Part shown: one piece after another, positions 51,822-63,615 of the stretch
Numbering within the stretch: position 1 is the first letter of the stretch
How the letters are laid out: each line of letters opens with the position of its first letter
Assembly: GCA_030653505.1 (NCBI GenBank)
Contig: JAURZK010000064.1
Coordinates: forward strand, 1 to 64,000
Direction of reading: 5' to 3'
DNA length: 64,000 nucleotides
From: Rubrivivax sp.
GTDB taxonomy: Bacteria; Pseudomonadota; Gammaproteobacteria; Burkholderiales; Burkholderiaceae_C
The notes under the pieces: generated by a model
Told to the model about the DNA's origin: nothing
The model's input: the letters and a program-made list of their open reading frames with translations, nothing else
The model's database searches: none
Program-made: the position numbers and the translations under genes

Positions 51822-52694
51822 ATGCCCGTTCCTCCGCTGGCCCCGGCCCTTGCCGGCGAACGTTTCGAAGTGGACGGCGTGAGTTGTCATGTGGCCGGAC
51901 AGGGCCCGCCGCTGCTGCTGTTGCACAGTGTGAACGCCGCCGCGTCGGCGGCCGAGGTCAGGCCGCTCTACGAGCACTACCGCCCCACGCGCACGGTGTT
52001 TGCGCCCGACCTGCCGGGTTACGGCTACAGCCGGCGTGGTGACCGTGCCTACACACCGCGCCTGATGACCGACGCGCTGCACGCCATGGCGCAGCAGGTC
52101 CGCAAGCGCTGCGGCACGGCGCCTGTCGATGCGCTGGCGGTGTCGCTGGGTTGCGAGTTCCCGGCCCGCGCCGCGATGGAGCAAGCCGCGCTCTGGGGCC
52201 GGTTGGCACTGGTCAGCCCCGCCGGGCTGATGGGCAGAAACCGCGGCGAGGACCGTCGGGCAGCACCCACGTGCTGCCGTGGCACTACAAGACGCTGGCC
52301 AACCCGCTCTGGGCGCAGGCGCTGTTCGACGGCCTGGCCCAACCCGCCGTGGTGCGCTACTTCCTGCGCCGCACCTGGGCGGGCCGGCCATCGACGCACA
52401 GAGGGCCCCGACTGCGCCATCCTCACCGCGCGCCAGTCCGTCGCGCGCTTTGCACCGCGGCACTTCCTGGGCGCGGGCCTCTTCAGCGCCGCCATCCACG
52501 ACGTCTACGACGCCGTGCGCAGCCCGGTGTGGGCCTGCCATGGCGTGCACGGCGACTTCACCGACTGCCGCGGCTTGGCCGCACTGAAACCGCAGCCGCC
52601 GTGGCGCGTGACGGTCTTGCCCACCGGCGCGCTGCCCTACTTCGAAGTGCCCGAGGCCTTCCGCGCCGAGTTCGACGCCTTCCTTGCGAAATGA
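51822..52694 (+). pseudogene. Alpha/beta-fold hydrolase with compensating frameshifts
   Basis: The frame is open for 290 codons but only its ends look like the hydrolase. Start to about 52250: LLLLHSVNAAASAAEVRPLYEHY-type and the lid region are in frame 1 of the gene. Between about 52250 and 52380 the homologous protein (HVLPWHYKTLANPLWAQALF, then RYFLRRTWAG) is in a different frame, a short piece (AIDAQRA) is in the third, and from about 52410 the original frame resumes (ARFAPRHFLGAGLFSAAIHDVYDAVRSPVWA). Three small indels that cancel out are the simplest reading; sequencing error is also possible. Likely nonfunctional or misread; divergent from nfnA. Confidence 0.7.
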
Positions 52695-52795
52695 CACGCG
52701 GGGCGGTGGCGCGCCGGCGCGGCGCTGCGGCTGGCATATTCTTCGCAGCGGCCGTGCACCAGCGCGCAATTGAACGCCACCCCGCCGCGACCCCC

Positions 52796-54355
52796 ATGTC
52801 GACATCGACCGCACTCACTGCCACGGAAGTCCGCGTACTCAGCCTGCTGCTCGAGCGTGCGCTGGCGCTGCCCGTCGACGAGCGCGAGGCCTTCATCGCC
52901 GCGCTGCCCGAACGCCAGCAGGTGCTGGTGCCGCGTTTGCGCGAACGTCTGGCGCAACTGGAGCACGGCGGCGATGCCCCCGCTGCGGCGGCGCCGCCCC
53001 CACCGCCGCGACCGCCGCCGCGTGCCGAGATGCGTGTCGGCCCCTACCGCCTGCTGGACCCGCTGGGCGGTGACGAGCGGGGCCGCGTCTGGCGCGCCGA
53101 ACGCGGCGAAGGCGCGGCGCGCAAGCTGTTTGCGCTGCGCCTGCCGCCGGCTGCGGCCGAGCCCGGTTCGCCGCAGGCCAACGCCGCGGAGATGCAGGTC
53201 GTGCTGCTGCCCGGGCACGAACACATCGTGCGCCTCGTCGACGCCGGCATCGACGCCGAAGGCCGCTTCTACCGGGTGCTGCCGCTGATCGAGGGCCTGG
53301 GCCTGGTCGAACACGCGCAGCGCCGCGGCCACGGCGAGCGGGCCGTGGCGCAGCTGATGCTGAAGGTGGCCAGGCTGGTGGCGCACGCCCACGAAGGGCA
53401 GGTGGCTTGCGGCGACCTGCAGCTGTCGCGCCTGCGTGTCGACGACGAGGGCCGCGTGCTGCTGCTCGACTGGGGCCAGGGCCGTGCGCTGCGGGCCGAG
53501 ACGGTCGCCGCCGACGTGCGTGCGCTGGGCCGCGCGCTGCACGCGTTGCTGGTTGGCACCGACCCGGGCGCAGCCCCGGGGGCCGATGCGAACCGGCCGG
53601 CCCGCGCCAGGCCGGTCGCCCCGGGCCCCGACCTGGGCTGGGTGCTGCAGCGTGCACTGGGCGCTGCAGCGGGCGTGCCACCGTATGCCGGCGTGCAGGC
53701 GATGGTGGACGACCTCAAGGCCATCCCCGCCTTCCGTCCCGTGCCCGGCGCGCCCGGCGGCGCACTGCATCTGGCGCGCCTCTCGCTGCGCCGCAACCGG
53801 CTGGGGCTGGGCGCTGGCGTGCTGGTGGGCGCGCTGGTTCTGGGCGTGGGCAGTGCCGGCTGGCGTGCCTTCAACCAGGGCCAGGCGCAGGCCCAGCGCA
53901 CGGACCAGGTGCAGGTCTTCCTGACCGAGCAGCTGCCCGGGCCGGCGCCGGGTGCCGACGGCCAGCCGCCTGACATCGGTGTCGAGGCGCCGCGCCTGCA
54001 GCGGGCACTGGAGACGGCGCGTTTCGGCTTCCCCGGCAACCCGGTCCTGCGTGGCCAGGTCATCACCGCCTTGGGCCTGCGCTTCCGCGCCCTGGGCCAG
54101 CCCGAGCAGGCACTGGCCGTGCTGCAGGAAGCGGTGTCACTGCTTCAGGGCACGGCCCGGGCGGGCGACCCGGCGCTGCACAGCGCCAGGCTGGAACTGG
54201 CGCAGCAGTTGCTGCAGGTGGGTGCCCCCGGCGCGCCGGCGCAGGCCGCGACGCTGGCGCGGCAGGTGCTGGACGGTTGCAGCGCCGGCGACGCATGCAC
54301 CGCGGCGCGCAACGCGGCGCAGGCCGTGCTGCAGCAGGCGGGAGCGGGGCGTTGA
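52796..54355 (+). CDS. Membrane-anchored pseudokinase with C-terminal TPR-like region
   Basis: A 519-residue protein. Residues 1-75 are helical with a Pro stretch; a Ser/Thr-kinase-like fold spans about 83-315, but the catalytic residues are lost: glycine loop DPLGGDERGRVW, VAIK-type Lys replaced by Arg (FALRL, R115), HRD replaced by CGD (205-207) with the catalytic Lys absent, DFG replaced by DWG (225-227). One membrane helix at about 337-356 (GAGVLVGALVLGVGSAGW), then a periplasmic helical region with repeated Leu/Ala-rich TPR-like segments. Resembles PknB-type proteins in layout, so a signalling scaffold rather than an active kinase. The stop is 25 bases before the orphan 3' end of the acs-type gene. 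Confidence 0.8.
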   Translation: MSTSTALTATEVRVLSLLLERALALPVDEREAFIAALPERQQVLVPRLRERLAQLEHGGDAPAAAAPPPPPRPPPRAEMRVGPYRLLDPLGGDERGRVWRAERGEGAARKLFALRLPPAAAEPGSPQANAAEMQVVLLPGHEHIVRLVDAGIDAEGRFYRVLPLIEGLGLVEHAQRRGHGERAVAQLMLKVARLVAHAHEGQVACGDLQLSRLRVDDEGRVLLLDWGQGRALRAETVAADVRALGRALHALLVGTDPGAAPGADANRPARARPVAPGPDLGWVLQRALGAAAGVPPYAGVQAMVDDLKAIPAFRPVPGAPGGALHLARLSLRRNRLGLGAGVLVGALVLGVGSAGWRAFNQGQAQAQRTDQVQVFLTEQLPGPAPGADGQPPDIGVEAPRLQRALETARFGFPGNPVLRGQVITALGLRFRALGQPEQALAVLQEAVSLLQGTARAGDPALHSARLELAQQLLQVGAPGAPAQAATLARQVLDGCSAGDACTAARNAAQAVLQQAGAGR

Positions 54356-54380: not shown

Positions 54381-54417
54381 AGCGCCTTGGTCGCGATCCT
54401 GAAGTCCGGGTCTTCCG
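54381..54417. repeat. Left copy of the 3'-end repeat bounding the RHS island (orphan acs-GNAT tail)
   Basis: Thirty-seven bases identical in 35 positions to 60746-60782. Read on the minus strand it encodes EDPDFRIATKAL plus a TAG (54377-54379): the last 12 codons of the acetate-CoA ligase/GNAT gene, with three synonymous changes and a different stop codon. It is the detached end of the target gene. Confidence 0.85.
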
Positions 54418-54439
54418 AGTCCCGGTGAGCAGAGCTCGG

Positions 54440-55160
54440 TGAGGGCAAGTCTTGCCTTCTGCCTCAGAGGCGTCGAACGCGGTAATCACCCGGGTTACCG
54501 TGGCCACCGACAGGGGCAAAGCCCCCGCCAAATGCGTCATGGCGCCGCCGCCTTGGGTGCAGGCGGGTGCAGAGCTTCTTCACGCGACAGGTCGGCCTGC
54601 AGCAGTTGCTGCAGCGAAAGCGGCCGGCTGCGCTGGGCCCGCTGCACCTCGTGCGCGTCGCGTGTCCGGCAGGCAGCGCCTCCTGCAAGCTCTCGACGAA
54701 GGCCTCGTCTCCGAGAAACAGCTGCTACCTCAGGCCCATTGCCCGGAAGTCGACGCCCACTGCCTGGTTGACCAGTTCCGCATACCGCGCCGCTGAGCTC
54801 GACGTAGCGACACAAGGTCAGCAGGTAGCTGTGGCGGTCGACCACGATGGCCTTGAAAAACTTCTGGACCAAGTGACCCAACCAGACCGTGGCGACGGTT
54901 GGAACGCTGCGCGTAAACCCTGTTCAGGTGGCGCATCAAGCGCGACAGATTGCCCTTCGGGGTGCGCAAGACCATGTGGTAGTGGAGCCCCATCAGGCCG
55001 TAATCCAGCAGCTGCGCGTCGAAGCGTTCCATTGCCTGGGCCAGTACGTCCAAATGCACATGGCGGTCCGCGTCGTCACGGCTGATCGGCTCACGTCGGT
55101 CGACGCGGGAGATGACTGGTAGACAGCGCCAGGGAACTCCAGGCGGAGAGGGCGGGACAT
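54440..55160 (-). pseudogene. REP-associated tyrosine (Y1) transposase pseudogene
   Basis: Three or more frames together recover the IS200/REP-associated (RAYT) transposase. Frame A at about 55120-55160 (MSRPLRLEFPGAVYQ), frame B (ISRVDRREPISRDDADRH, then GLMGLHYHMVLRTP with the HUH-type HYH, and the nucleophile Tyr in RVYAQRSNRRH), frame C (KAIVVDRHSYLLTLCRYVEL) and finally an HTH-like end (LAGALPLSVATVTRVITAF). The shifts at about 55115, 54880 and 54540 break it, so it is inactive. It lies just inside the left island repeat. Such enzymes normally mobilise REP elements. Confidence 0.75.
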
Positions 55161-55335
55161 GGGGTGAGATTAGGGGGCGAGGTGAGTAAAAAAGTAAGAC
55201 CCGCCCCGTCCTAGACCCCATCCCCTGACCCTGTCCCCTGCGTTCCCGAGGACAACGGCAAGACGACCTCCTGTCATGCAAAACGCAAGACCGGAACCCG
55301 AGACCCTGGAGGCGAGGCGCGAAGGCTGAAGCGGA
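55161..55335. other. Short gap between RAYT remnant and ComJ
   Basis: 175 bases with a T/G-poor run CCCCATCCCCTGACCCTGTCCCC at about 55207-55228, resembling motifs seen near RAYT genes, but no clear REP palindrome was identified. Confidence 0.3.
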
Positions 55336-55815
55336 TCAACCAAGCGCAGGCTGCGCGGTAGTCAGAAGCTCACCATCAATCGTCAACTCTGGGTCTGCGC
55401 GAACAACCGCGAAGCGGGGGTCATCGTTTCTCGCGAATGTCAGTCGCACTCGCTCTCCGGCAGTGCCGGCGGGCTGCAAGAACTCGCAGCGCAGGAGGAA
55501 GGAACCGGCCGGCAGAGACAGGGCTACTGTCTCGGCAATGCTCCCAACCTCTACCGCACCGTCAGCTGGAATGTTGAAGGGCACCTCCACCACACGCACC
55601 GCATCAGAATGAACAGCACCAACATGATTGGCGACATCGATCTCGACCGAGTGTTGACCGGCCTCGACCATGCAACGGAACGACACGCTGCCAGGCCGCC
55701 AGGCAAACCCCTGCGCAACGTGTCGATCGGTCCAGTCGTTGAACGGCTGCTTCAGTGAACTCGCGAAGACCGCAAGTTGCCGATACGAGACCTCAACGCC
55801 GATCCTGGTCGTCAT
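55336..55815 (-). CDS. ComJ-like nuclease inhibitor, predicted immunity protein
   Basis: A 159-residue protein resembling ComJ, the B. subtilis inhibitor of the NucA DNA-entry nuclease: SYRQLAVFASS, NDWTDRHVAQGFAWRPGSVSFR and LTFARNDDPRFAV. It starts two bases after the RHS stop (ATG 55815, with GGAGATTGAGG upstream), so toxin and inhibitor are co-translated. No signal peptide, as expected for cytoplasmic self-protection. The pairing with a NucA domain strongly supports the role. Confidence 0.82.
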   Translation of the reverse strand: MTTRIGVEVSYRQLAVFASSLKQPFNDWTDRHVAQGFAWRPGSVSFRCMVEAGQHSVEIDVANHVGAVHSDAVRVVEVPFNIPADGAVEVGSIAETVALSLPAGSFLLRCEFLQPAGTAGERVRLTFARNDDPRFAVVRADPELTIDGELLTTAQPALG

Positions 55816-55817
55816 CC

Positions 55818-58800
55818 TCAATCTCCGATCTTGATCTGGACTCGGGTTCCATTCGGCAAGCCGCGACATGCGTTGCCGATACAGGCCCCCGATGACATGT
55901 TGTCGCGTGGGCTGATTGGCCGAACACTTGCGCCTGCGCCACCCTCTCTGAACATGGCCGGTGGGTACTCATCCAAGTGCTTGCCAACCACCTTGTCAAG
56001 CGCACCCGTAGATGTTTGCCTGTTCGCCGAAGCGCCGGCTCGATCAATGGTTAACACGCTTGGCTTACCTGCCTTGATCGCATCCGCAGCATGCGCCGCC
56101 GCTTCACCGTGGATCGAACGCGAAAGAGATATCTCCCTTGCGGCAATCCCCTGAACTGCAGCTATCCCGCCCCGTGCACCGCCGCCAATTCCGCCGGCCA
56201 ACGTGGCACTCGCAGCAAGTGCCGATCCCACCTGAGCAGACACCGTTTCAGGAAGCACGTCGGCGATGCCGGCGCCGTTTCCGCTGCCGCCAACCTCGTG
56301 CGGCACGTCAGCGGCTATCGACGAGCGACCGTCAGGATCTGTGAACTTGTATGGGTTGCTCTCTGCATAGACGTAACGGTTGAAATGCCCGCCAGTCTTG
56401 GCGTCGGTGGTGACTGGATCGACCGACAGGAACCTCCCCGCGATCGGATCGTAGTACCGCTGCTGCATGTAAACGAGCCCCGTATCCGCATCGTTCACAT
56501 GCCCCGTGTACCCGATGGTCGCCGGACTCGTGCTGCCCGCCACCGTCGCGCCATACGGCTCATAACGTGTGCGGGAGACCACCGCCCCGGTGTTGCTCGT
56601 TTTCGCAACGGGGCTGCCCAGACCATCGGTGTGTGCATAGGTCGTGACTCCGCCGTCGGTGGTCTCGGCGATCAGCCTGTTGCCCAGATACACGTGCCGT
56701 CGCCCCCCCTGCGACGAACCCCATGCAAACCGCAGCTTGCCGTCCTTCGTGTAGGCCTGGTGCAGGTAACCGCCGCCGGCGAACCACACCAGATTGCGCC
56801 TTCCGTGCCCGTCGTAGGCATAGGTGGCCTTGCCGGTGGCACTCCTCATCCGGTTGCCGATGTCGAACACGAAACCCTGGCCCCCAAGCTGCGCGATGTT
56901 GCCGTTGGCGTCGTAGCCGATGCCCAGGTTCAGGCTGCCACTGATACCCGTCAGCCGGTTCGTGCTGGGGTCGATATGGTGGGTCAGGCTGCGCCCGCCC
57001 ACCGTGCTGCCGGTCAGGTTGTCCAGCGCGTCGTAGCCGAAACTGCCCGCACCCCAGGGGCCGCTGGCCTGCCGCAGGCGGTCCAGCCCGTCGTACAGTG
57101 TCATGCCGCGGCTGTTCACGCCGCCCGGAGTCTCGTCGGTGATGGCCGTGACGTTGCCGTTGCCGTCATAGGCGTAGCGGTCGCGCACCACGCTGCCGTC
57201 TTGCATCAGTGCGGTCAGGCCGCGCACGTTCTGCGTCATGACGTAGCCGATGCCGTTGCCCAGCGTGTAGCCGGCCACCGCGCCGTTGGGGTGGTAGCTC
57301 ACGGCACTGGCGTAACCCGACACCTGCGTCGGTCGACCCAGCGCGTCGGGTGAATACTGGACGGTGCCCCATGGGTCGGACAGCGAAGCGGCGTGGCCGT
57401 AGGCGTCACGTCCCCAGTTGAAGTCCCACCCGTTGTTGGCGTCGCCCCAGGTGTAGCGTTCCCGGGTCAACAGCCGCCGGCTGTTGTAGCTGTAGCTCCA
57501 GGTGACCGGGTTGACGCCGGCGCCATTGGTGCCGATGCTGCCCAGCAACCCGTCGTCCGTGTAGCTGCGCGTGATGTTCTGGCTGCCGTCGCCGTAGGTG
57601 GTGGTCAGCAGCCGGTTGCGTTGGTCGTAACCGTAGCTGATGAGGCTGGAGCCGGCCACCTGCGTCTCGCAGCCCGGGCCGGGGAAGTTCTGTCCGCTGG
57701 CGCGCCAGCTCACGTTGCCGGCCGCGTCGTAGCCCTGCACCGTCGCGCTGCTCTCCGGCTCCACGGTCTTGCACAGGCGCTCGTGAGCGTCGTAGACGTA
57801 GCTGCGGCTGGCCGAAACGCCACCGCCCGAGCGCGTGATGGACGTCGGCTTGCCCAAGGCGTCGCGCGCGATGGACACCGTCACGCCCTCGGGCGCATCG
57901 ATGTTTCTGATGCCGTCTTCGGTGGGTTCGTCCCAGGCCTGGTAGCTGAACGTGCTGGCGTGCCCTTTGGGGTCGGTCACGCGCTTGCGGAAGTCGCCCA
58001 GGTACTCGGTGATGGTGCTCAGCAGGCTGGGGCTCAGTTCGCTGCTCTGACGGTGTACCAGTTCACGGCCCAGGGCGTCGTATTCCCACCAGTGGCCACT
58101 GGTGCCGGCGCCGACGCCGCTGATGGTGCGTTGGGGATAGGTCTCGAAGGTCTTGCGGCCGTCGATGTCGTAGCGCGTTTCCACGGCAGCCGAGGTGCCT
58201 GCCTCGTTGCCCGCGTCGTACTCGACACGTAGCCGCTCCCGCCACAGCGCGTCGAAGTAGCTTCGTGCCACGCTGTTGCCCGTCGTGATGGTCTGCTGCC
58301 AATGCCCGCCTTCCAGGCCCTTGTCGGCGGCGGGCATCTGCTGGAAGCCGATGGTGGTCGCGTGATAGTTCAGCCCCGTCTCAGGTGGGTAGTCCACCCG
58401 GTTCAAGCGGCCCATCGCGTCGTAGCCGTACTGCATCGTCGTGCCGGCCGCGTTGGTCCAGGCGGTCACCAGGCCGATATCGCTGACATCCACCCTCTCG
58501 CTCTTGCCATCGGCATAGGCAATCAAGCGCGCAAGGCCGCGCTTGTAGTCCCCATAACTCGTCTGCTGCCCTGCGCCGTCACGTATCCACTTCAGCGTGC
58601 CGTCGGCGTGAAAGTCGAAGGTCTGATCGGGCCGCCCGTTGACGGAACGCGCGATGGGCCAGGCCTTGACGGGGTCGTAGGAGATCGACTCGGTCAGCAC
58701 GGCCTGCGGCAAGCCCCCGCCCGACACGGTGAGGCTCGCCCGCTGGCCCAGGATCCACTTGTCCGGCTTGTCCCAGTACACCGTCGACTCCATGCGCTGG

Positions 58801-60611
58801 TAGCCCAGGCTGCTGCCCTTGAGCATCACCGTGGGCCTGACCCGGGTGTCGAACGTGGAAGCCTCCCAGACGAAATCGACGCCCTGCTGGGTGGTCTGCC
58901 TTCGATCCAGGGGCAGGTGCTTGCTGGCCATGGCCCCGTCGGTTCGGAAGCTGATGGGTGTGCCGGCTGTCAGCGGGTAGTCCCCGTTCGGCGACTGCCG
59001 GTAGCGGAGCGTCTTGACACGCAGCGCAGCCTGCCCGTTCCAGCCCTCCTCTACCTTGAGCAACTGGCCTTCGTTCTGCAGCCAGCGGTTGCCGTGCGTG
59101 TACCGCGTCACGAAGCCACGCGGGTCGGTGACCTTCATCGCCACCGTCTCCGCACAACCGGCGCAGGGACTCAGGCTGCCGTTGTGTGCGTCCCAGGTGT
59201 AGGTCCACGTCGAGGCCGAAAGGCCCGGCCCGCTCAGGGACTTCCGGGTCAGGGCACGCTGGAGGTAGAACACCGGAATTGAGTTGACGACGGCGCCAGA
59301 GGCCGACCAGCAATCGTTGATGACGTGCGACCGACCGCGCATGATCTGTTCGAGCGTGAAGCTGCCGATAGCGCCGCTGGGATGCACCATCGTCATCGTC
59401 CGCGACGCCGCCACGAAGCTGCCTTGATTGGCGGGCCCGCTGCCGCAACCGTAGGGCGCGTACCCAGGTGTGTACGCCGGGTTGACCTGCAGGCTGTCCC
59501 CGTAAAACCGCCACTGCGCGGCGTCAGGCTGGGTTACCGCTGTCAGCACTGAGCTGCCGACGTAGCTGTAGGTCCAGGTTCGAGTGCCATCGGTCACCGA
59601 CCGGATGACATCGGTCGTGGCGTCGTAGGCCAAGTCTATGGTGCGCCCGTCGCTGGCGGCGATGCGTTCAAGCCGCCAAGGACGGGTCGCCGAATACGTG
59701 TAAGCCACGGTGTTGCCGTAGCGGTCGGTGACCAGCGTAGGCAGCAGGAAAAACTCGCTGCGCAGCAACTGAAAGCCCATGCCGGCGTTTTCGCCCGGGA
59801 CTCTCTGGCCGCGCGCGCCTGTGCCGGATCCGCCTGCGCTTCGATAGTCCTGACTGCCGGGCGCGACGAAGGGTGCGTAGGGCCTGGAGACCAGCCAGTC
59901 GAAGCGGTACTGCGTGCCATCGGGTGCCACGCCGACGAAGCCCTCGCCCGCCTGGCCGCGTGGCAGCGGCCCGGCAATGCAGCGAAACGCCCACCCGCCC
60001 TTGGTGACGACGGGGTAGCTGTTGCCGTCGGTGGGTGCAGGGTTGACGGCCTCGCGGCGCAGCAGTTCCTGCTCGCCGCTTCCCGGCACGTAGAGGTGGT
60101 TGCCAAACCAGAACTCGAAGTTGGAGACGATTGCCTGGCCGGTCTGCGTAGGCGCATCTGCTGGCGCATTGAACTGGCTGCAGCGCTTGAACCGGTCTGG
60201 CGAGCCGTAGTAGTGCCCGACATTCCAGCCGTCGTAGTGGCTGAACACGCCCTTGAGGTGTGGAATGTCTAGGTCCCAATCACCAAATGCACCCTTGGCC
60301 ATGCGTTTGGCACCGGTGGGCAAATGCCGGCCTATGCGCACGGCCAGTGCGCTGTTCCCCGGCAGGCTCACATCGGTCTGCGTGAATGACACGCCGCCGT
60401 TGTAAAGGCTGACCTGACCGCCAAAGAGCGACGAGGTCAGGCTTTCGACCTTGCGGCTGCCACGGACGAGTTGCCCCTGCTCTTCGTAGATCGTCGGTGT
60501 GGGGGCCTGCGCCGTCGCGGGGGCCGTCATCGACAGCGCGATGGCCAGCAGGCCCGCCTGCAGCCAAACGCGTCGACGCCGCGATGCGTCTATGGGGCGG
60601 ACGTGATCCAT
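55818..60611 (-). CDS. RHS/YD-repeat polymorphic toxin with C-terminal NucA/NucB DNase
   Basis: A 1597-residue secreted RHS protein. Signal peptide 1-35 (LLAIALSMTAPATAQA), then a beta-rich N-terminal region, many YD repeats (for example GRPTQVSGYASAVSYHPNG, NGNVTAITD), and the RHS core ending YYDPIAGRFLSVDPV and NPYKFTDPDGR at residue 1429, the usual autoproteolysis/cleavage border. Residues 1430-1597 are toxin; from about 1515 they match NucA/NucB (VLTIDRAGASANR, DEYPPAMF at 1547-1554 with the catalytic Asp/Glu, SPRDN, IGNACRGLPNGTRV), a sequence-nonspecific DNase fold. Sec export rather than a T6SS adaptor is indicated. ATG 60611 has GGGAGGAA upstream. Confidence 0.9.
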   Translation of the reverse strand: MDHVRPIDASRRRRVWLQAGLLAIALSMTAPATAQAPTPTIYEEQGQLVRGSRKVESLTSSLFGGQVSLYNGGVSFTQTDVSLPGNSALAVRIGRHLPTGAKRMAKGAFGDWDLDIPHLKGVFSHYDGWNVGHYYGSPDRFKRCSQFNAPADAPTQTGQAIVSNFEFWFGNHLYVPGSGEQELLRREAVNPAPTDGNSYPVVTKGGWAFRCIAGPLPRGQAGEGFVGVAPDGTQYRFDWLVSRPYAPFVAPGSQDYRSAGGSGTGARGQRVPGENAGMGFQLLRSEFFLLPTLVTDRYGNTVAYTYSATRPWRLERIAASDGRTIDLAYDATTDVIRSVTDGTRTWTYSYVGSSVLTAVTQPDAAQWRFYGDSLQVNPAYTPGYAPYGCGSGPANQGSFVAASRTMTMVHPSGAIGSFTLEQIMRGRSHVINDCWSASGAVVNSIPVFYLQRALTRKSLSGPGLSASTWTYTWDAHNGSLSPCAGCAETVAMKVTDPRGFVTRYTHGNRWLQNEGQLLKVEEGWNGQAALRVKTLRYRQSPNGDYPLTAGTPISFRTDGAMASKHLPLDRRQTTQQGVDFVWEASTFDTRVRPTVMLKGSSLGYQRMESTVYWDKPDKWILGQRASLTVSGGGLPQAVLTESISYDPVKAWPIARSVNGRPDQTFDFHADGTLKWIRDGAGQQTSYGDYKRGLARLIAYADGKSERVDVSDIGLVTAWTNAAGTTMQYGYDAMGRLNRVDYPPETGLNYHATTIGFQQMPAADKGLEGGHWQQTITTGNSVARSYFDALWRERLRVEYDAGNEAGTSAAVETRYDIDGRKTFETYPQRTISGVGAGTSGHWWEYDALGRELVHRQSSELSPSLLSTITEYLGDFRKRVTDPKGHASTFSYQAWDEPTEDGIRNIDAPEGVTVSIARDALGKPTSITRSGGGVSASRSYVYDAHERLCKTVEPESSATVQGYDAAGNVSWRASGQNFPGPGCETQVAGSSLISYGYDQRNRLLTTTYGDGSQNITRSYTDDGLLGSIGTNGAGVNPVTWSYSYNSRRLLTRERYTWGDANNGWDFNWGRDAYGHAASLSDPWGTVQYSPDALGRPTQVSGYASAVSYHPNGAVAGYTLGNGIGYVMTQNVRGLTALMQDGSVVRDRYAYDGNGNVTAITDETPGGVNSRGMTLYDGLDRLRQASGPWGAGSFGYDALDNLTGSTVGGRSLTHHIDPSTNRLTGISGSLNLGIGYDANGNIAQLGGQGFVFDIGNRMRSATGKATYAYDGHGRRNLVWFAGGGYLHQAYTKDGKLRFAWGSSQGGRRHVYLGNRLIAETTDGGVTTYAHTDGLGSPVAKTSNTGAVVSRTRYEPYGATVAGSTSPATIGYTGHVNDADTGLVYMQQRYYDPIAGRFLSVDPVTTDAKTGGHFNRYVYAESNPYKFTDPDGRSSIAADVPHEVGGSGNGAGIADVLPETVSAQVGSALAASATLAGGIGGGARGGIAAVQGIAAREISLSRSIHGEAAAHAADAIKAGKPSVLTIDRAGASANRQTSTGALDKVVGKHLDEYPPAMFREGGAGASVRPISPRDNMSSGACIGNACRGLPNGTRVQIKIGD

Positions 60612-60741: not shown

Positions 60742-63363
60742 TCAAAGCGCCTTGGTTGCGATCCTGAAATCCGGGTCTTCCGCGTAGGGCGCCACCTGGA
60801 AGCCCAGGCTGGTCATCAGCTTGAGCATCGGTGCGTTGTTGGTGAGGATCAACCCCATGATCTCGGCCAGCCCCATGCGCCGCGCGGCGTCCATGATCGA
60901 CAGCATCAGCCGCGAGCCCAGGCCGCGGCCGGCGAAGTCGTCGGCCACCAGCAGCGCAAACTCGCAGCTCGTGCCGTCGGGGTTGGTGACGATGCGGCTG
61001 ACGCCGACGATGCGCTCAAGTTCGCTCGTGCTGCCGTCCTCGGCAGCCACGTTCTCCTTCACCACCGCCACCAGCGCCATCTCGCGGTCGTAGTCGATCA
61101 GCGTGAAGCGCGCCAGCATGCGCATCGGCAGTTCGGGCAGCGAACTGGCGAAGCGGAAGTAGCGGCTCTCGGGCGACAGCTTGCGCACCAGGCCCTGCAG
61201 CATCTCGGCGTCGTCCGGATGGATGGCGCGGATGGTGTAGGCGCCGCCGCCCTTCAGCGGCCACTCGCGGTCCAGCCCGGTGGGGTAGGGCAGGATGGCC
61301 AGGTGGTTGTAGCTGCCGGGCGTGGACCCGGCGTCGTCGATGACGACACGCGCGTCCACCGCGATGGCGCCGCTGTCGTCGACGATGATGGGGTTGATGT
61401 CCATCTCGCGCAGCTGTGGCAGCGCGCACACCATCTCGCTCACGCGCAGCAGCACCGCCTCCAGCGCACCGTGGTCGATGGCCTGTGCGCCGCGCCAGGC
61501 TTCCAGCATTTCGGCGACGCGGGCGCGGTTGATGAGGTGGCGGGCCAGGAACTGGTTCAGCGGCGGCAGTTCCATCGAACGGTCGGCAATCAGCTCGACC
61601 ATGGTGCCGCCGGCGCCGAAGGTGATGACGGGGCCGAAGGCCTCGTCGGTGGTCATGCCGACGAAGACCTCGCGCCCGCGCGGACCCTGGCGCGGGCCGG
61701 CCATCGGCTGCACGGTGATGCCGTTGATGCGCGCCTCGGGCTGCGCCTTGGCCACCGCCTGCAGCATCTCGTTGTAGCGGTCGCGCACCTGGGTCGCGTT
61801 GTGCACGTCGAGCGCCACGCCCTGCACGTCGCTCTTGTGGCTGATGTCGGGCGAGTCGATCTTCAGCGCCACCGGGTAGCCCAGCTGGCTGGCAATCAGC
61901 ATCGCCTCGTTGGCGCTGCGCGCCAGCATGGTGCGCGTGACGGGGATGTGGAAGGCCGCCAACAGCGACTTGCTCTCCATCTCTGTCAGCACCTTGCGGC
62001 GTTCGGCCAGCACACCCTCGATGAGCAGGCGCGCGCCCTCGGTGTCGGGTGCGGCACCGCCGCCCAGCGGCGGCGGCGTCTGCTGCAGCAGCTGCTGGTT
62101 GCGGTAGAAGCTGGCGATGCTGTTGAAGGCGTCCACCGCGCCTTCGGGCGTGCGGAACACGGGCATGTGCCTGGCCACCATGATCTCGCGCGACTTGCGC
62201 ACACGCGCCTCGCCCATCCAGCAGGCCAGCACCGGTTTGGCGGTGGGCGAGAACTCGCCCGCCACCGCGCTGGCGATGGCCTCGGTGTCGACGCCCACCT
62301 TGGGTGCGTGGATCACCAGCACGCCGTCGATGCCGGGGTCGGCCACCGCCGCCTGCATGCCGGCGACGTAGGCCGCGGCGTCGGCGTTTTCGCCCAGATC
62401 GTCGACCTTGGCGATCTTCAGGCCGAGCCCGTCCCCCCAGTCGGCGGCCAGCACGGCCGGGCCGCCGCCGTTGGTCACGATGCCCAGGTTCACGCCCACC
62501 GGGCGGAAGCGCGAGGCCAGGCACTGCGCGGCGCTGAAGAGCTGGGTGAACTGGCGCACGCGCACCACGCCGGCGCGGCGCAGCGCGGCGTCGAAGACAT
62601 CGTCGGCACCGACGATAGAAGCCGAGTGCGTCAGCGCCACCTTGCTGCCCGCGGCCTGGCGGCCCGACTTCATGACCACCACCGGCTTGGAATAGGCCGC
62701 GGCGCGCAGCGCGCTCATGAAGCGGCGGGCGTTGCGTATGCCTTCCATGTAGACCAGGATGCTCTGCGTGCCGGCGTCGGCCGTCAGGAAGTCCAGCACC
62801 TGGGGCAGTTCCACCGCGGTGTTCGGCCCCAGCGAGATGACGGTCGAAAAACCCACGCCCTGGTGCTGCGCCCAGTCGAGCATGGCGGTGGTGAGTGCAC
62901 CCGACTGCGACACCAGCGCCAGCGGCCCGGCTGCAGCCAGCTGGCCCATCGTGCTGGCGTTGAGCTTGATCGCCGGGCGCTGTATGCCCAGGCTGTTGGG
63001 CCCCAGCAGGGCCACGCCGTGCAGGCGCGCGATCTGGTGCAGCTCGGTGCATTTCGCGGCATCGAGGCCGCTGGTCAGCACCAGCGCGGCGCGGCAGCGG
63101 ATGCGACCCGCCGCTTCCAGCGCCGCGGCGCACTGCGCGGCCGGCAGCGCGATGAGCGCGAGGTCGGCGCGCGACTGCGCGAGTTCGCCCAGCGTGCCAT
63201 GGGTGCTGATGTCCAGCCAGGTGACGGGGCCTGCGTAGCCACCCTCGGCGATGGCGGCGCGCAGTGCGCCGGCCTCGCGCGAGGGGGCCTCGGCGTCGGG
63301 GTCGCCGGCAAAGGCGATGATCGAGCGGGGGTTGAACAGGGGGGTCAGGAAATGGCGGTCCAC
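60742..63363 (-). CDS. Acetate-CoA ligase (ADP-forming)-like protein fused to GNAT acetyltransferase (Pat-like)
   Basis: An 873-residue protein of the Pat/AcdI type. Domains in order: CoA-binding (about 1-130, FNPRSIIAFAGDP), ligase alpha (about 135-430, GPNSLGIQRPAIKLNAS and SGRQAAGSKVALTHSASIVG), ATP-grasp beta (about 460-680, YPVALKIDSPDISHKSDVQG), and GNAT (about 700-873, LVADDFAGRGLGSRLMLSI). Salmonella Pat with this layout acetylates enzymes such as acetyl-CoA synthetase; others are true ligases. GTG 63363 (VDRHFLTPLFNPRS) is the family start; ATG upstream is not used. The 3' end is the insertion point of the RHS island. Confidence 0.9.
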   Translation of the reverse strand: MDRHFLTPLFNPRSIIAFAGDPDAEAPSREAGALRAAIAEGGYAGPVTWLDISTHGTLGELAQSRADLALIALPAAQCAAALEAAGRIRCRAALVLTSGLDAAKCTELHQIARLHGVALLGPNSLGIQRPAIKLNASTMGQLAAAGPLALVSQSGALTTAMLDWAQHQGVGFSTVISLGPNTAVELPQVLDFLTADAGTQSILVYMEGIRNARRFMSALRAAAYSKPVVVMKSGRQAAGSKVALTHSASIVGADDVFDAALRRAGVVRVRQFTQLFSAAQCLASRFRPVGVNLGIVTNGGGPAVLAADWGDGLGLKIAKVDDLGENADAAAYVAGMQAAVADPGIDGVLVIHAPKVGVDTEAIASAVAGEFSPTAKPVLACWMGEARVRKSREIMVARHMPVFRTPEGAVDAFNSIASFYRNQQLLQQTPPPLGGGAAPDTEGARLLIEGVLAERRKVLTEMESKSLLAAFHIPVTRTMLARSANEAMLIASQLGYPVALKIDSPDISHKSDVQGVALDVHNATQVRDRYNEMLQAVAKAQPEARINGITVQPMAGPRQGPRGREVFVGMTTDEAFGPVITFGAGGTMVELIADRSMELPPLNQFLARHLINRARVAEMLEAWRGAQAIDHGALEAVLLRVSEMVCALPQLREMDINPIIVDDSGAIAVDARVVIDDAGSTPGSYNHLAILPYPTGLDREWPLKGGGAYTIRAIHPDDAEMLQGLVRKLSPESRYFRFASSLPELPMRMLARFTLIDYDREMALVAVVKENVAAEDGSTSELERIVGVSRIVTNPDGTSCEFALLVADDFAGRGLGSRLMLSIMDAARRMGLAEIMGLILTNNAPMLKLMTSLGFQVAPYAEDPDFRIATKAL
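60746..60782. repeat. Right copy of the 3'-end repeat bounding the RHS island
   Basis: Coding copy of the 37-base repeat: the last codons of the acetate-CoA ligase/GNAT gene, just before its TGA at 60742-60744. It is 6365 bases from the left copy. See the left copy for the comparison. Confidence 0.85.
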
Positions 63364-63615
63364 GGCAGATCTCGCAGCGCCGAAAGGGCGCACTCGCCTA
63401 CAGCATAGGCCCGCACGGGGGGCCGGGTTGTGACGCCGCGCAAGCCGCAGGGCAGCGTCGCGCGCCATCGGCGTGAAAAAAGCCGCCACCGCCGAGGGGC
63501 TGCACGATCAACTGTGGCGCGCCATCGCGAAGCACCACGGCGTGCGCCGCCTGCCGACGGCCCCGTGGTGCCGGTGGCCGAGGCCGACGTCCCGTCGGCC
63601 TGCTGGCGTTCAGGT
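63364..63615. other. Gap between the TPR-like gene and the acetate-CoA ligase gene
   Basis: 252 bases upstream of the acs-type gene with no clear gene or promoter motif. A minus-strand frame with a short hydrophobic/Gly-rich segment is noted but not supported by a start. Confidence 0.35.

Follow-up and report, generated by a model that had tools for sequence, protein, structure and literature searches.

A NucA/NucB-tipped RHS protein and its ComJ-family neighbor in a Rubrivivax genome: a probable toxin/immunity pair within an apparently inserted block

The RHS gene and its carrier protein

The window considered here, by which is meant the whole 64,000-nucleotide stretch of Rubrivivax sp. DNA that was analysed (contig JAURZK010000064.1, positions 1 to 64,000), contains a gene encoding a 1597-residue putative RHS (YD-repeat) polymorphic toxin (55818..60611, minus strand), so assigned by both Pfam and NCBIfam matches. 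Specifically, the open reading frame matches RHS_repeat (PF05593; Pfam, 1.5e-20) in five separate stretches and Rhs_assc_core (TIGR03696; NCBIfam, 1.4e-22) at residues 1350-1428, and the RHS core ends in the border NPYKFTDPDGR at residues 1419-1429 (56325..56357, minus strand), located from its letters together with the TIGR03696 match. YD/RHS repeats and an RHS-associated core thus stand ahead of a variable tip, as in RHS polymorphic toxins, and the length, repeats and border given for this protein in a sequence-only reading of the DNA all hold. A GGAGG-like site lies upstream of the ATG, and within the host genome RHS_repeat, NucA/NucB and ComJ each return a single match (E 0.001).

The first 35 or so residues (60507..60611, minus strand) are signal-peptide-like, as judged by eye and by a hydropathy scan: an RRRR motif is followed by a hydrophobic stretch and then by AQA. 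By eye this resembles the signal peptide of the sequence-only reading, but the hydropathy maximum of 1.66, at residues 15-29, only slightly exceeds the 1.45 reached in the remainder of the protein. Taking the inspection and this weak peak together, the start of the protein looks like a Sec-type signal peptide, while the stretch RRRVWL makes a Tat route possible.

The nuclease tip

The C-terminal tip of the RHS protein contains a NucA/NucB (Tox-ComI) nuclease domain at approximately residues 1488-1597 (55821..56150, minus strand), an assignment drawn from Pfam, a PDB sequence match, the predicted fold and the catalytic residues. DNase_NucA_NucB (PF14040) is matched at 4.4e-6 and 27.6 bits by the whole RHS protein and at 1.7e-7 and 32.1 bits by the tip alone, both above the cut-off of 23.8, so that the family membership first proposed from the letters passes the HMM check. 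Additionally, a phmmer search of PDB sequences with the tip recovers Bacillus NucB at 2.2e-19; the NCBIfam scan gave no match to the tip. The predicted structure of the tip has a mean pLDDT of 78.6, with tip residues 13-60 nearly all below 50 and the remainder mostly above 90, and those poorly modelled residues are likely a linker. The nuclease had initially been placed at residues 1430-1597; the domain does fall within that range, but residues 1440-1487 are modelled at pLDDT below 50 almost throughout, and the domain proper begins near residue 1488. Against the PDB, the model produced only three matches at E ≤0.001, all of them NucB structures (9fj7, 6ejs and 5omt), the best being 9fj7 (E 1.7e-12, TM 0.92 by target length, rmsd 0.9).

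The catalytic residues are likewise retained. In a sequence alignment whose letters were checked, H53, D93, E94 and N117 of BlNucB correspond to H1507, D1547, E1548 and N1571 of the RHS protein, and the H, D, E and N columns are invariant in all 13 nuclease domains aligned. Variants of BsNucB at each of these four residues are described, in the portion of the NucB structure paper available, as having no significant nuclease activity (PMC5758888). From the computed fold and catalytic residues we infer that the tip would be a metal-dependent DNase of the NucB type.

The adjoining ComJ gene

Two bases past the RHS stop begins a gene encoding a 159-residue ComJ-family protein, the putative immunity protein (55336..55815, minus strand), recognised by Pfam, by PDB sequence match and by predicted fold. 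Its match to ComJ (PF11033) has an E-value of 2.7e-21 and, at 76 bits, lies far above the cut-off of 25, and a search of PDB sequences with the 159-residue protein returned B. subtilis ComJ, 4MQD, at 3.8e-8; an NCBIfam scan gave no match. The predicted structure, with a mean pLDDT of 93.3, matched nothing in the PDB at E ≤0.001 other than two chains of 4MQD (2.0e-9 and 3.5e-9), the first with a TM of 0.79 by target length. Both the position of a ComJ-like gene two bases after the RHS gene and its family, as proposed from sequence, are therefore confirmed. No signal peptide was seen by eye in this protein. That the nuclease and ComJ assignments might be chance matches was also considered, and is ruled out by the Pfam, PDB sequence and predicted-fold matches.

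Tip swapping and composition

Of 60 genomes of the genus, 17, the window's own included, encode a match to carrier residues 38-637. Eighteen carrier regions were compared. Sixteen come from the other genomes of the genus, with 13 of these 16 genomes represented (G015, G059 and G075, with short matches, were left aside), and order-level relatives supplied the remaining two. Within the genus, the match to the core in most cases reaches the border, beyond which the tips differ; one carrier with differing tips in its relatives is a hallmark of RHS polymorphic toxins. Neither the tip nor the ComJ of the window matches any open reading frame of the 16 genus regions, even at E 10, while of the two order-level regions one (L074) matches the nuclease and the other (L073) matches ComJ. 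The tip is rare near the species of the window, occurring in two of 41 genomes, its own among them. Among the 14 genus tips taken into the tip-family scan (all except L061 and L066), toxin families were matched above cut-off in two, Ntox10 in L070 and EndoU in L075; the L069 tip gave ParB_N and VapB matches, both below their cut-offs, and the remaining 11 were without a tip family. Two genus carriers (L060:3179-3688 and L063:5139-5582) bear what appears by eye to be a similar tip, with no Pfam family. Separately, the carriers of L059 and L060 have N-termini that read by eye as lipoprotein-like (LLAAC and LLTAC, respectively).

The composition of the locus sets tip and comJ apart from the core. 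GC at third codon positions falls from 0.850 in the core to 0.602 in the tip, with comJ at 0.650, and the lowest value of any 170-codon stretch of the core is 0.776. By this measure tip and comJ resemble each other and differ from the core, and so look like one acquired cassette.

Nuclease and ComJ in other genomes, plasmids and phages

A single scan of genome contigs identified at least 21 loci with a relative of the tip, to which the following pairing counts refer. Pairing was scored by a single-sequence search with the window's ComJ (E ≤0.01, open reading frames of at least 40 residues), a search that distant ComJ proteins may escape. ComJ lies directly downstream of the nuclease in eight of the 21 listed loci (L004, L005, L006, L007, L008, L009, L011 and L018); the other 13 gave no ComJ match at E 0.01, the downstream DNA being short in some, and the nuclease may also occur with other partners or with none.

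RHS or filamentous-haemagglutinin carriers are present in six of the eight ComJ-paired loci, five by Pfam (L004, L005, L006, L008 and L011) and one by phmmer (L007). Within the 10 listed loci that the Pfam carrier scan covered, a set that does not include L018, RHS families occur in the carriers of L004, L005, L006, L011 and L016; the L008 carrier is a filamentous haemagglutinin whose nuclease match, at 23.0 bits, falls just below cut-off, L012 has a pre-toxin domain below cut-off, and L007, L009 and L017 have no carrier family. Despite this, L007 matches the RHS core of the window by phmmer. In L007, from Luteimonas endophytica, a long RHS core ends in another tip, and after it come two partial RHS C-termini; one of these bears NucA/NucB and precedes ComJ, and the arrangement resembles an array of spare tips. 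In Bacillus timonensis (L009:2158-3537), a weakly RHS-like end is followed by one stop, a nuclease open reading frame in the same frame, and then ComJ. In one order-level relative (L073:3749-4210), ComJ stands beside RHS ends, with no NucA/NucB match in the contig stretch examined.

On mobile elements, the nuclease domain matches 38 plasmid records, among them six from Burkholderia multivorans annotated as RHS plus comJ. The window's ComJ matches only six plasmid records at 1e-5, four from Sinorhizobium and two from Rhizobium; since the annotated B. multivorans ComJ is not among these, it is distant from that of the window. Among phage records, the nuclease domain matches 12 (11 Bacillus and one Listeria), and comJ has no match at 1e-5.

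The insertion boundary

A 40-base direct repeat brackets the locus. One copy (60746..60785, minus strand) lies within the 3' end of an acyl-CoA synthetase (NDP-forming)/GNAT gene (60742..63489, minus strand), a flanking gene outside the toxin system whose 3' end is duplicated, and the second copy of that end (54381..54420, minus strand) is alike at 37 of 40 bases; the next best site in the window, on either strand, reaches 24 of 40. The far copy repeats the final residues encoded by the acyl-CoA synthetase/GNAT gene, has a stop of its own and lies 25 bases from the end of a convergent kinase-like open reading frame on the far flank (52151..54355, plus strand; start uncertain; Pkinase at 24.7 bits, below the cut-off of 31.7). 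Between the copies, downstream of comJ, is a remnant of an IS200-like (Y1_Tnp) transposase (54730..55281, minus strand; 2.3e-5, 24.9 bits, cut-off 23).

At 1e-40 the C-terminus of the acyl-CoA synthetase/GNAT protein has matches in 39 of the 60 genus genomes; the junction was compared across 30 loci, the window's own included. A relative of the kinase-like open reading frame, convergent with the acyl-CoA synthetase/GNAT gene, is present in three of the 29 others (L084, L086 and L088), where the match starts 29, 17 and 123 bases, respectively, past the last residue of that gene. The neighbor of the gene evidently varies within the genus, since the other 26 loci have no kinase-like match within up to 1.5 kb. 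On the simplest reading of these sequences, a block of approximately 6.3 kb consisting of the RHS gene, comJ and the transposase remnant was inserted at the junction of the acyl-CoA synthetase/GNAT gene and the kinase-like frame. An insertion bounded in this way suggests the joint arrival of carrier, tip and antidote.

No integrase was recognised in the block among the open reading frames scanned, a set that leaves aside some small ones. Nor does a duplicated gene end flank any of the 14 further RHS loci compared within the genus, in searches that reached at most 5.5 kb upstream and 6 kb downstream; ten of these loci provide a fair test, L114, L122, L123 and L124 having less than 1.5 kb of downstream DNA, and L118 shows just a weak 24-base flank match. 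As far as these sequences go, the pattern is not general in the RHS loci sampled. It is conceivable, though we consider it improbable, that the block exemplifies a self-contained islet directed to the 3' end of a protein-coding gene, which it makes whole again with a copy that it brings along; with no recognised integrase, such islets would spread secreted RHS weapon-plus-antidote units between chromosomes.

Delivery and function

Neither a PAAR domain nor an adjoining VgrG gene, the marks of a PAAR-RHS effector of the type VI secretion system (T6SS), is found at the locus. PAAR has no match in the RHS protein (Pfam) or in the genome as a whole, which is 93% complete in 200 contigs, VgrG has none within the window, and no delivery machinery was found adjoining the RHS gene. 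The earlier statement that VgrG and PAAR are lacking is therefore true of the window, but elsewhere in the genome VgrG is matched on contigs C20 and C150 only, weakly on the latter, TssC on C20, and the type II secretion (T2SS) secretin GspD on C152; T6SS and T2SS genes thus lie away from the locus. For the RHS protein the route that we tentatively prefer would be Sec export and then either T2SS or display at the surface.

The locus is very probably an RHS-class polymorphic toxin/immunity pair. Sequence, fold and catalytic residues, together with the recurrent pairing of the two genes and the swapping of tips, give good support to the reading of the tip as toxin and of ComJ as its immunity protein. 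In the sequence of events that we propose, the RHS protein would be exported by means of its putative signal peptide, with a YD-repeat shell presumably enclosing the C-terminal nuclease, by analogy with the RHS family; the NucB-type, metal-dependent tip would then cut the DNA of competitors. ComJ, with no visible signal peptide, would remain in the cytosol, block the nuclease and shield the producer and its kin, as reasoned from Nin/ComJ of B. subtilis. Their composition supports the gain of tip and comJ as a single cassette, and the repeat and the related loci support insertion of the RHS-comJ block next to a housekeeping gene, at its 3' end, both steps being putative.

The same signal-peptide-like start would also suit a secreted or surface-bound nuclease acting on environmental DNA, whether for nutrition, biofilm or DNA uptake; ComJ would then guard the cytosol against enzyme still awaiting export. 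NucB is presented in the available text of its structure paper as an extracellular, biofilm-degrading enzyme (PMC5758888), and the lipoprotein-like N-termini of two carrier relatives, L059 and L060, point in the same direction. We nonetheless regard such a function as unlikely: the same RHS core bears other tips within the genus, Ntox10 and EndoU among them, which better fits weapons, and the composition shared by tip and comJ differs from that of the core. Slightly more doubtful is use of the RHS protein as a T6SS cargo effector by way of a VgrG encoded elsewhere in the genome. The presence of VgrG and TssC together on contig C20, and a B. multivorans plasmid with the order VgrG-DUF1795-RHS-comJ, would be in keeping with that route, against which stand the signal-peptide-like N-terminus and the missing PAAR and local VgrG genes described above. 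A silent or decaying locus, as the adjoining transposase remnant might hint, is very improbable given that both reading frames are open, that no catalytic residue is lost and that the RHS ATG has a GGAGG-like site ahead of it.

Relation to known systems

The sequence-only reading held the pairing to be unusual, a judgment that does not survive comparison with the literature. In the portions available, Zhang et al. (2012; PMC3482391) treat the ComI nuclease as a toxin domain, against which ComJ homologs act as immunity proteins in several proteobacteria, and in their Table 2 Tox-ComI appears together with T2SS and T6SS export, Imm-ComJ, Imm-SUKH and RHS repeats. Like the window, Tox-ComI/Imm-ComJ as presented there combines a DE-motif nuclease toxin, RHS repeats and immunity by a ComJ homolog; no difference in kind was found in those portions, and the window adds the insertion boundary. 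The 'Tox-NucA' of the same work is, in the available text, a separate HNH/EndoVII entry, a name that can mislead. Opposite to the proposal that a competence pair was reused as a weapon, the available text of Zhang et al. (2012; PMC3482391) raises the possibility that the Bacillus pair derived from a toxin/immunity pair. Bacillus NucA/NucB and its inhibitor Nin (ComJ) share nuclease fold, catalytic residues and inhibitor fold with the window's proteins, but the Bacillus nuclease is a free secreted enzyme whereas that of the window is the tip of an RHS protein.

A second precedent is pBMUL01 of Burkholderia multivorans ATCC 17616, where an RHS gene whose product carries a NucA/NucB tip (48% identity across 69% of the query) is likewise followed by an annotated comJ. 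Its RHS gene adjoins VgrG and DUF1795 genes, fitting T6SS delivery, whereas the gene of the window has no such neighbors and has a signal-peptide-like start; the pBMUL01 ComJ does not match that of the window at 1e-5. The idea that the pairing is new is refuted by this plasmid and by what is available of Zhang et al. (2012). Salmonella PAAR-RhsA-NucA_B also joins RHS to a NucA/NucB tip, a predicted DNase, but in the available part of its description it has a PAAR domain, a T6SS island and a DUF6707 partner where the window has ComJ (PMC11669294). Salmonella RhsA-HNHc, from the accessible text, bears another nuclease (PMC13224477), and the terms NucA, NucB, ComJ and Nin do not occur in the main text, as available, of the paper on Tde5/Tdi5 (PMC13392607). 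Among the titles and abstract openings of a partial coverage of the literature, none described an RHS NucA/NucB-ComJ pair being tested experimentally.

Implications

The locus is a well-formed example of the Tox-ComI/ComJ kind known since 2012, real, intact and ordinary in kind, in which the insertion boundary is the new element and the one unexpected detail. The NucB structure paper, in the text available, leaves open the mode of inhibition by Nin/ComJ (PMC5758888). As an intact Gram-negative Tox-ComI/ComJ pair whose carrier has a signal-peptide-like start, the locus is useful for testing how Nin/ComJ inhibits NucA/NucB.
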